Shown here one piece after another: positions 1,024-54,522 of a DNA stretch of 54,522 bases. The notes beneath the pieces are model-generated. The model was given only the letters and a program-made list of their open reading frames with translations. It searched no databases and had not been told where the DNA came from. This DNA comes from Sphingobacteriales bacterium (GTDB lineage: Bacteria; Bacteroidota; Bacteroidia; Chitinophagales; Chitinophagaceae): contig JAPLEF010000170.1 of the NCBI GenBank assembly GCA_026391525.1, positions 1-54,522 on the forward strand. The letters run 5' to 3'. Position 1 is the first letter of the stretch. The number at the start of each line of letters is the position of its first letter. A program made the position numbers and the translations under genes.

Positions 1024-1072
1024 CATCTCGTCTATTCAACTAACGTATAGGTTTAGCCGAAAACATAAAATC

Positions 1073-1193
1073 ATACCAATGTGATTTATATAATATGCCA
1101 ATATTTTATAAATCTTAAATGCCGATGGTATCAAACAAATAGTACAATGAGGCGATAGCTGATATTGGACTATATTGTTTGTCCAATCGGTAT
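1073..1193 (+). repeat. Two-module palindromic interspersed repeat, copy A
   Basis: Module 1 (1073-1118) starts ATACCAAT and holds an AT-rich hairpin at 1083-1114 (GATTTATATAATAT, loop GCCA, ATATTTTATAAATC; 13 of 14 pairs). Module 2 (1119-1193, 75 nt) runs from ATGCCGATGG to CCAATCGGTAT and has an imperfect inverted repeat of about 24 nt at its ends. Module 2 recurs almost exactly at 42531-42605, 42608-42682 and, inverted and shortened, at 54360-54425. Module 1 recurs at 42485-42530. This copy sits between two convergent genes and ends a few bases from the stop of the 1198-2352 gene. No open reading frame of its own and no clear target-site duplication were seen. Confidence 0.9.
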
Positions 1194-1197
1194 CAGT

Positions 1198-39624: not shown

Positions 39625-39709
39625 TGCTTTTTGGTGTAGGGTTTTTAGTTTATAGTTTGTGCATACCGATTTATCAAACTTTATTTCATTTTTTGAAAAC
39701 AACATTCTA

Positions 39710-39786
39710 ATTATCAATTATCAATTATCAATTATCAATTGTCAATTATCAATTATCAATTATCAATTGTCATTTATCATTTATCA
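39710..39786. repeat. Tandem heptanucleotide repeat, 11 units
   Basis: Eleven contiguous 7-bp units with consensus ATTATCA: seven are ATTATCA, two are ATTGTCA and two are TTTATCA. The period is kept exactly over 77 bp with no indel. It fills the gap between the 3' ends of DUF3467 and radC and stops 9 bp before the radC stop codon. Confidence 0.93.
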
Positions 39787-39795
39787 ACTGCTCAA

Positions 39796-40497
39796 TCACA
39801 TCATCCCCTCATCTGCAAAACTAAAATACCCTTCCTCAGTTACGATGATATGATCCAGCACTTTGATATCCATAAAAGCTGCCGCCATTTTTATCTTGAT
39901 CGTAAGATCTTCATCCGCCTTACTGGGTTTGGGATTACCGGAAGGATGATTATGGCTCAATACTATACTGGTGGCTTCACTCTCCAAAGCTTTTTTCAAA
40001 ATTACTCTGGGATCGGCTACGGTACCGGTGAGTCCGCCCTTACTCACAATTTCAAAGTAATTGATCTTATTGGCCCTGTTGAGGTACACTACAGCAAAAA
40101 CTTCCAAGCGGTAATCCTTTATTTGTGTTCGTACAAATTCCGCCAGGTCGGCACTGCTTCGTATGGCTGTTTTCTGGAATACTACATCTGCCTGCCTTCT
40201 TCTACCCAGTTCAAATGCGGCAATCAGGCTGGCAGCTTTTGTTAAACCGATTCCTTTTATTTTTTTCAAATCTGCGAAAGAGCATTTGCTCAGTTCATTG
40301 AGGTTATTATGGCCACTTTGGAGCAATTGCTGAGCCAATTGAATGGCAGAATGGTTGCGGTTTCCGGCACGGAGTAAAATGGCAATTACTTCTGCTGTAC
40401 TCAGAGCAGTTGCACCGTGTTGTTGTAATTTTTCCATCGGTCGGTCGGCAGGTGCCCAGGTTTTTATGGATGTGGAAGGCTTTTGAACATTTTCCAT
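39796..40497 (-). CDS. radC: RadC-family JAB/MPN domain protein
   Basis: A 233-residue protein of the UPF0758/RadC family. The N-terminal part (DRPMEKLQQHGATALSTAEVIAILLRAG) and an HhH-type LKKIKGIGLTKAA precede the metal-binding JAMM motif SHNHPSGNPKPSKAD (HxHx7Sx2D). Despite its name, a direct role in repair is not settled for the family, and some members are linked to transformation or to mobile elements. Here the protein looks complete and chromosomal. It is divergent from prs. Confidence 0.93.
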   Translation of the reverse strand: MENVQKPSTSIKTWAPADRPMEKLQQHGATALSTAEVIAILLRAGNRNHSAIQLAQQLLQSGHNNLNELSKCSFADLKKIKGIGLTKAASLIAAFELGRRRQADVVFQKTAIRSSADLAEFVRTQIKDYRLEVFAVVYLNRANKINYFEIVSKGGLTGTVADPRVILKKALESEATSIVLSHNHPSGNPKPSKADEDLTIKIKMAAAFMDIKVLDHIIVTEEGYFSFADEGMM

Positions 40498-42450: not shown

Positions 42451-42484
42451 GTATAAAAGTGATTGAATTCACTATGTTGAAGTA

Positions 42485-42605
42485 ATACCAATGTGATTTA
42501 TATAATATGCCAATATTTTATAAATCTTATATGCCGATGGTATCAAACAAATAGTACAATAAGGCGATAGCCGGTATTGGACTATATTGTTTGTCCAATC
42601 GGTAT
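42485..42605 (+). repeat. Two-module palindromic interspersed repeat, copy B
   Basis: Same layout as copy A: module 1 (42485-42530, hairpin 42495-42526) and module 2 (42531-42605). Module 1 differs from copy A only in its last base. Module 2 differs from copy A at three positions over 75 nt. It is followed after 2 nt by copy C. Confidence 0.92.
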
Positions 42606-42607
42606 AC

Positions 42608-42682
42608 ATGCCGATGGTATCAAACAAATAGTACAATGAGGCGATAGCCGATATTGGATTATATTGTTTGTCCAATCGGTAT
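42608..42682 (+). repeat. Palindromic interspersed repeat, module 2 only, copy C
   Basis: A second 75-nt module 2 in direct repeat to the one in copy B, without module 1. Three bases after it, ATTGGTAT (42685-42692) is the exact inverse of the ATACCAAT that opens copy B at 42485-42492, so B+C form one 208-bp unit with 8-bp terminal inverted repeats. Confidence 0.9.
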
Positions 42683-42695
42683 AAATTGGTATCAT

Positions 42696-53247: not shown

Positions 53248-53291
53248 ATGTATAATTGTTGGGCTTTAATTAAAAGTATAAATTCATTCAT

Positions 53292-54251
53292 ATGAAATTG
53301 ATTTGCCTGCTTTTTTGTTGTGTGCTGATCGGTACCTCTTGCAGTAAAGACAATCCTGCTCCTAATCCTGTATATGCTGATACCTTATCAGCAGGTTGGA
53401 CGAAAACTGTAATCGATACAGCAGAAAATTTTAGTGATATTTATTTTGCTGATAATGCTATTGGTTATTTATCAAGTCGCCAAAATATCTATCGCTCCTT
53501 GAATGGAGGAATAACCTGGACCAACTTGAATGTTAATGTAAGGAATGTACTAAATATCGCCGTATCCCCCAATGGCAATTTAATTGCAGTAAATGAAACT
53601 GATACCGTTTACAAGATAAACTATGGTACGAACCAATTGACCAAAACTAAAATAAGTGGATCCAGTGGATTTGTTGATGTCTTTTTTCTAAACAATCAGG
53701 AAGGAATGGTTGCAGGTTATTCAAAACTTTATCAAACTATAGACTCAGGGCTGAATTGGCAACAGGTTGCGATTTTTGGAATTGGGCGTTACCCTTCGAT
53801 TCATTTTGTTGATAACAATACAGGTTGGATCGCAAGTCAATCTAGGATCATAAAAACCAACGGCAATATCAATAACTGGCAAATTTGTAATGTGCCTCCT
53901 AATACATTTGGTAATAGCTCGTTTTCTACAGTTTTTGGAGCCAGCAGCACAACAGTCTATATGGCGAATTTTGGTAAGATATACAAATCCGTCAATGGCG
54001 GCACTGATTTCTTACAAGTGGCACAACTGCCGCCGGGAGCAGAGGGGGCTTTTCCAGATCTTCATTTTGTAAATGACAACACTGGTTATATCAATGCAGG
54101 AAATAGAATTTATAAGACCACCGATGGCGGTTTAACCTGGCAAGTGGTTGTAGCCCTTGGCAACGATGGTATAATTGAGATCCACTTTACAGATGCCAAT
54201 CATGGTTGGGCTTGCGGATCGAGGGGCACGATTTTACGTTTCAATAATTAG
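53292..54251 (+). CDS. Ycf48/BNR-repeat lipoprotein, first copy
   Basis: A 319-residue exported protein. The signal MKLICLLFCCVLIGTSCSKD ends in a lipobox-like GTSC. The body is a beta-propeller of Ycf48/sortilin-type (BNR) repeats, with motifs such as NGGITWT, DSGLNWQ and DGGLTWQ and the DNxxGWI/GYI strands between them. The repeats show no enzyme active site; these proteins usually bind ligands or act as scaffolds. A function cannot be given. The first 76 bases from the ATG, plus 3 bases before it, are identical to the start of a second copy at 54447. Confidence 0.83.
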   Translation: MKLICLLFCCVLIGTSCSKDNPAPNPVYADTLSAGWTKTVIDTAENFSDIYFADNAIGYLSSRQNIYRSLNGGITWTNLNVNVRNVLNIAVSPNGNLIAVNETDTVYKINYGTNQLTKTKISGSSGFVDVFFLNNQEGMVAGYSKLYQTIDSGLNWQQVAIFGIGRYPSIHFVDNNTGWIASQSRIIKTNGNINNWQICNVPPNTFGNSSFSTVFGASSTTVYMANFGKIYKSVNGGTDFLQVAQLPPGAEGAFPDLHFVNDNTGYINAGNRIYKTTDGGLTWQVVVALGNDGIIEIHFTDANHGWACGSRGTILRFNN

Positions 54252-54359: not shown

Positions 54360-54425
54360 ATACCGATTGGACAAACAATATAGTCCAATATCGGCTATCG
54401 CCTCATTGTACTATTTGTTTGATAC
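54360..54425 (-). repeat. Palindromic interspersed repeat, truncated module 2, copy D
   Basis: 66 of the 75 nt of module 2, inverted relative to copies A-C; the part equal to ATGCCGATG is missing. It differs from copy A at one base and from copy C at one base. It sits 21 bp before the start of the second lipoprotein copy. Confidence 0.9.
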
Positions 54426-54446
54426 ACATAATATAAATTCAAACAT

Positions 54447-54522
54447 ATGAAATTGATTTGCCTGCTTTTTTGTTGTGTGCTGATCGGTACCTCTTGCAGT
54501 AAAGACAATCCTGCTCCTAATC
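54447..54522 (+). CDS. Second copy of the Ycf48/BNR-repeat lipoprotein, partial
   Basis: The reading frame starts with the same MKLICLLFCCVLIGTSCSKD signal and runs off the right edge after 25 codons. All 76 bases match those at 53292-53367, and 3 bases before the ATG are also the same. It is either a true tandem paralog or an assembly edge effect (see findings). Nothing can be said of the rest of the protein. Confidence 0.65.
   Translation, partial: MKLICLLFCCVLIGTSCSKDNPAPN

Follow-up and report, generated by a model that had tools for sequence, protein, structure and literature searches.

The 54,522-nt window analysed here, part of contig C151 (JAPLEF010000170.1) of the Sphingobacteriales bacterium assembly GCA_026391525.1 (2.85 Mb, 188 contigs), carries copies of a two-hairpin element that, on our best reading, expanded recently in the host species to ~100 near-identical copies, mainly intergenic. 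With a probability of roughly 0.75, this element represents a non-autonomous, MITE-type family of DNA transposons moved in trans by a TNA-cutting transposase with a 3-nt stagger. The first-pass annotation of the window, made from the sequence alone, had described an interspersed repeat family built from an AT-rich 32-nt hairpin (module 1) and an imperfect palindrome (module 2). The family is real and far larger than first seen: genome-wide patterns allowing ≤3 mismatches located module 2 at 104 places and module 1 at 75, and reversed control patterns for both modules found 0 places in the same genome. All four copies originally marked in the window are present, with module-2 parts 97–99% complementary or identical where paired. 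The features of the window are as follows, with module A denoting hairpin 1 and module B denoting module 2.

1071..1073, no strand: target duplication TCA, left (sequence read; included in the duplication count)
1074..1192, + strand: A-B copy of the element, 119 nt, in a gap between convergent genes (its ends and the TCA on either side read directly)
1193..1195, no strand: target duplication TCA, right (sequence read; included in the duplication count)
42483..42485, no strand: target duplication TAA, left (sequence read; included in the duplication count)
42486..42681, + strand: element copy, A-B-B form, 196 nt (sequence read; fold computed), made up of hairpin 1, module B (42531–42604), linker TAC (42605–42607) and a second module B (42608–42681)
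42682..42684, no strand: target duplication TAA, right (sequence read; included in the duplication count)
54361..54425, − strand: truncated copy, right part of module B only (end TACCGATTGG...), left end missing (sequence comparison)

Because the target duplications set the limits of each copy, we revised those in the window to 1074–1192 and 42486–42681. Accordingly, the module 2 at 42608–42682, once listed as a copy of its own, is no independent insertion, and 42486–42681 is one element containing module 2 twice.

Element ends and target-site duplication

A comparison of the host genome copies revealed sharp ends, with the element starting at TACCAAT and finishing at ATCGGTA, and terminal inverted repeats TACCAATGTGA versus TACCGATTGGA. 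Complete copies measure 119–238 nt (n = 63). The three bases immediately outside are mostly TNA and match between left and right flank in 49 of 63 copies. In a stricter set of 56 testable copies, which omits seven of the 63 whose right flank enters a further or cut module B, flanks are identical in 45 (shuffled mean 22.1, maximum 35 in 20000) and differ in the other 11. Forty-six copies have TAA or TTA on both sides, and the two sides agree in 43 of them (Fisher p ~1e-9). The choice between TAA and TTA is not predicted by any base of the element (lowest p 0.18 in 264 tests), and identical element copies occur with TAA and with TTA flanks. We read the flanking TNA as a 3-bp target-site duplication left by a staggered cut.

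The same signature is found in members from other genomes, recovered with the covariance model described below. Setting aside nine of the 75 members, whose left end is unclear, leaves 66; TNA-type flanks are identical in 41 of these (shuffled mean 21.3, maximum 35) and not identical in 25, and keeping one row per right flank gives 41/64. The outer bases of these members are TACC at 38/66 left ends and GGTA at 58/66 right ends. In the mechanism we propose, a transposase supplied in trans would recognise the ends TACC(A/G)A...T(C/T)GGTA of an element consisting of hairpin 1 followed by hairpin 2 and would insert it at TNA with a 3-nt stagger, generating the TNA duplication.

Copy number and module order

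We fetched 77 loci around copies, which together with the window gave 90 clusters classed by module order. The A-B form accounts for 54 clusters, with an A-B spacing of 51 in 34, 72 in 15, 59 in 2 and other values in 3; A-B-B accounts for 16, A alone for 6, and B or B-B without A for 14. Nine of these last 14 start ≤76 nt from a contig end, and each of the remaining five is truncated, carries an internal deletion or is preceded by a run of N. The division into a long form and a module-2-only short form in the first-pass annotation thus holds for the existence of two palindromic modules and fails as a description of the family, which is a mix of A-B, A-B-B, A alone and B-only clusters; a module-2-only short form was not seen as a mobile unit, such copies being truncations, contig ends or tandem second copies. 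The repeat also breaks up the assembly: 21 of the 90 clusters are located at or close to the edge of a fetched stretch, in most cases a contig end. Since contigs C5, C19 and C125 also start or stop within a copy, the true copy number probably exceeds the pattern counts.

A 62-nt derivative, consisting of hairpin 1 and half of the CCCGAA hairpin and ending in CGGTA, is found at L080:2983-3050 and L095:3055-3125 with equal TNA flanks at both; it may be mobile without hairpin 2, or it may reflect two separate deletions. In the window, ATTGGTATC (42685–42693) comes directly after the right-hand TAA of the A-B-B copy; it is the inverse of the element's left end and is either the remnant of an earlier copy or a chance match.

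Organization of the two hairpins

The full plan of the element consists of hairpin 1 and hairpin 2. It is intact at Ferruginibacter locus L137, whose left part is a perfect ~50-nt palindrome TACCAATGTGATTTAT...ATAAATCACATTGGTA, followed by the module-2 palindrome. By sequence comparison with L137, module 1 of the host genome is a decayed form of this ~50-nt palindrome that lacks its 3′ foot; the 32-nt module 1 is a remnant and not a separate unit. The foot of hairpin 1 is degraded in the host genome: it is lost in the spacing-51 form, partly kept in the rare spacing-59 form, and replaced by a CCCGAATGCTTTCGGG hairpin in the spacing-72 form. At L160:1501-1643, from a different genus (G362), a CCCGAAACCTTTCGGG hairpin that resembles this 72-form insert lies between hairpins 1 and 2.

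Of 27 B-B joints, 26 have TAA as the linker irrespective of the outer duplication, and this constancy suggests that the double-B (A-B-B) form moves as one unit. In outside members, an automatic cut placed TAA at the hairpin 1–hairpin 2 joint in 35 of 75 and TTA in 6 of 75, for a total of 41/75. Each hairpin can be described as a palindromic unit TRCC...GGTA, with TAA or TTA between units in several sub-families. We infer that one unit once landed beside the other, and that the pair, along with the A-B-B triple in the host genome, would then have moved together. The presence of TAA or TTA at such a joint hints at a way in which composite MITEs could form.

A conserved plan in divergent genomes

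At the DNA level, similarity to the host's element was found in 0 of 38 relatives, and the proposal that the copies are young therefore stands for the host genome. It does not extend to the two-hairpin plan itself, which is old and spread over genera. A pattern search of congeners returned 16 places outside the host genome, against 9 for the reversed control. Among the 14 of these that were read (all except those in G057 and G065), three are elements of a sister type, two in G044 and one in G016, and 11 are not elements. A pattern scan of public genomes gave seven loci in other Bacteroidota. Three of them are the congener elements; of the rest, two come from a Flavobacteriales MAG and one each from Ferruginibacter and a Bacteroidetes MAG. 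A covariance model built from nine sequences identified members in 19 of 394 genomes (the host included) and 12 of 101 genera within the host family; the rows listed have nine scored candidates per genome, making within-genome counts lower bounds. The 75 outside matches are strongly divergent in their interior and keep the two-hairpin plan with TACC/GGTA-like ends. Plasmid, phage and viral collections gave no match to the element queries, and searches of open-licence PubMed Central papers turned up no description of the family. With exact ends, a target rule and a covariance model, the formerly anonymous repeat is now a defined superfamily of mobile elements.

The hairpins fold more stably than shuffles. 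The long copy has a fold z of −5.95, with 0/200 shuffles equally stable, and among every second member palindrome scores lie above shuffles in 32/38 for hairpin 1 and 36/38 for hairpin 2. We tested pairing on 18 hairpin-2 sequences of equal length (62 nt), leaving out 3 of 21 (L148, L155 and L281) whose register looked different. In this set, 91.6% of cells pair, and pairing falls to 27–42% when the partner is slid by 1–3 columns. Twenty-six cells are changed on both sides, versus 10.6 in shuffles (0/500); at pairs 16–47 and 17–46, some sequences have C-G and the rest of the 18 have U-A, with no unpaired case. Three of the five measures were reached by none of the shuffles. The remaining two stay within the shuffled range, as pairs with both sides changed were reached by 97/500 and further pair types by 308/500. 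Relatedness inflates the three that exceed shuffles, and independent events are few. Hairpin 1 of one genus looks similar by eye. Template-switch correction of imperfect palindromes can also yield paired changes, and the paired changes fit selection on the fold and template-switch correction alike.

Hairpin stability and paired substitutions in the stem raise the question of whether the element is a structured RNA or regulatory hairpin kept by selection and spreading only secondarily, all the more as the same insertion, with its hairpins, is found in two or three related genomes and the + strand gives the better hairpin-2 fold in 70 of 74 members. The strand difference, however, comes mostly from a single fixed G-T pair close to the hairpin foot: hairpin-2 mismatches number 124 G-T and 56 A-C in 75 members and come near balance without approximately one fixed G-T per element. 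Rfam gave 0 matches at gathering score in the window, L137 and L135, and the host genome copies sit at many different genes. We consider such a selected RNA quite improbable. The paired stem substitutions nevertheless count against a simple MITE, as a transposase that merely recognises ends would not require them.

Search for the mobilising enzyme

The TNA target points to an IS1031-type transposase, since the target choice of the element resembles that of the IS1031 group of the IS5 family. PIF/Harbinger target choice is likewise TNA-type. We searched for four protein families (DDE_Tnp_1, DDE_Tnp_4, DUF4096 and Y1) and read ~0.77 of the 2.85 Mb of the host genome. PF13359 (DDE_Tnp_4, PIF/Harbinger-like), sought in the host genome only, gave 0 matches there. 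PF01609 is present in 17 of 23 element genomes and absent from 6, where G362 and G463 are by all signs the same genome; no TNA-TACC..GGTA-TNA pair was found at 30 PF01609 loci out of 38 listed places. A strict end-pair scan, requiring TACC(A/G)A(A/T), covered 42 loci (L170–L211) and the host loci L037–L113. The latter yielded 21 end pairs, many of which are neighbouring copies and most of which have unequal flanks, and their inner ORFs were checked in part. A further 0.32 Mb of host contigs contained one end pair (L308), within ordinary genes. Among 22 short contigs, the longest ORFs were scanned in 10; these encode no transposase domain, and three have no Pfam match.

At L037 and L075, sequence other than module B comes after module A, and both copies were considered as possible ends of an autonomous element. 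L037 leads into ordinary genes, and L075 into a short, decayed transposase-like stretch (L075:3165-3384, contig C84; named by eye). Overall, no partner transposase with matching ends was found among the families and contigs covered, and a multi-copy IS could be missing from the fragmented assembly. With ~100 near-identical copies and no partner transposase recognised in the genome, the missing enzyme becomes a concrete target.

The conservation over genera of two hairpins with paired substitutions, together with the TNA duplication and the lack of a known partner in the families sought, leaves a small chance, ranging from slim to somewhat better, that the element belongs to a distinct, hairpin-dependent class with a 3-bp TNA duplication and an enzyme outside DDE_Tnp_1, DDE_Tnp_4, DUF4096 and Y1. 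Such a class would be intermediate between HUH single-strand and DDE cut-and-paste transposition. Against it, only four families were sought, the assembly is fragmented, template switching can also produce the paired changes, and doubly changed pairs are among the measures that shuffles attained.

High-copy imperfect palindromes also recall REP sequences moved by a RAYT (TnpA_REP, an HUH tyrosine transposase), whose hairpins are recognised as single strands, and the element might belong with the atypical palindromes that have been reported next to subclass 2.6 genes in Bacteroidetes. At C163, 4 nt separate the end of a module B from the start codon of the RAYT gene that follows (L106:1-615, at a contig end), and 16 of 19 element genomes contain RAYT relatives (E ≤ 1e-10), versus 243 of 394 overall (p 0.051). 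Yet 0 of 29 RAYT relatives (49–59% identity) have the element in the returned flanks, the only other matches having E 1.8 and 4.8, so a RAYT partner, suggestive at C163 only, is not upheld. By our estimate, chance may have placed one of the ~100 copies next to one of the four RAYT genes. Target duplication is not expected of REP or IS200/IS605 movement, and the 3-bp duplication observed here likewise counts against an IS200/IS605-type MITE. Different palindromes surround the other host RAYT examined, on C6: the gene at L174:1426-1971 (within L174:1300-2200) is flanked by CCGGATTGTATCCGG and ACACCGGTG..CACCGGCG, likely an atypical REP family. Letters similar to these palindromes are found on the right side of the L066 copy. 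The GT[AG]G foot of REP hairpins was not seen in the copies examined, whose ends are TACC/GGTA; subclass 2.6 repeats are also without GT[AG]G (PMC6006769). We therefore find RAYT-driven movement unlikely, and of the original "MITE- or REP-like" label, the target-site duplications support the first half, while the 3-bp duplication and the 29 unflanked RAYT relatives speak against the second.

Comparison with known elements

The MITE-type family to which we assign the element has an unusual twin-hairpin plan that is widely conserved. A close analogue in plan, to which no sequence relation would be expected, is BOX of Streptococcus pneumoniae (boxA-boxB(n)-boxC), which is short, modular and intergenic, with terminal inverted repeats, target duplications and a variable number of central modules (PMC3049150). 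Variable module number is shared, A-B-B occurring beside A-B, whereas the host's element consists of two self-contained hairpins. BOX is nearly confined to pneumococcus and close species (PMC3049150), in contrast to the twin-hairpin relatives found over many genera. MITECca01 of a Cardinium endosymbiont (Bacteroidota) provides a case of a MITE burst, with 169 copies of ~240 bp, mostly intergenic, and its parental IS982 is present in the same genome (PMC9769881); no parent was found for the twin-hairpin element, and length and ends differ. The IS1031 group is characterised by a TNA target and a 3-bp repeat (PMC12016507), as is the element. The ends differ (TACC.. versus GAACCTG.. in one IS1031-group member; PMC12016507), and PF13340, the IS1031-type transposase, is absent from the host genome and present in only 2 of 23 element genomes. 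With REPs and REPINs mobilised by RAYT (TnpA_REP subclass 2.6), the element shares high-copy, intergenic imperfect palindromes and one copy adjoining a RAYT gene, and is set apart by its target duplication and by the RAYT relatives that lack it.

Insertion context

Among 45 copies with enough flank, 39 are intergenic, compared with 312 of 1800 points placed at random in these loci. The gaps are tandem in 17, convergent in 14 and divergent in 8. The other six copies overlap ORFs of 306–726 nt, some of which may not be genes; the initial claim that all copies are intergenic thus survives as a preference. Window copies lie between a sigma-factor gene and a secretion sorting domain gene, between the genes for ribosomal protein L25 and YidC, and 3′ of a YCF48/BNR-type gene. 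The start of this YCF48/BNR-type gene is duplicated with 98% identity (53277–53367 and 54432–54522), and the flank with the truncated copy of 54361–54425 recurs on contig C77 (L071). Elsewhere in the window, a 14-nt tandem array AATTATCAATTATC/AATTGTC occupies positions 39695–39801, at or before an ORF start.
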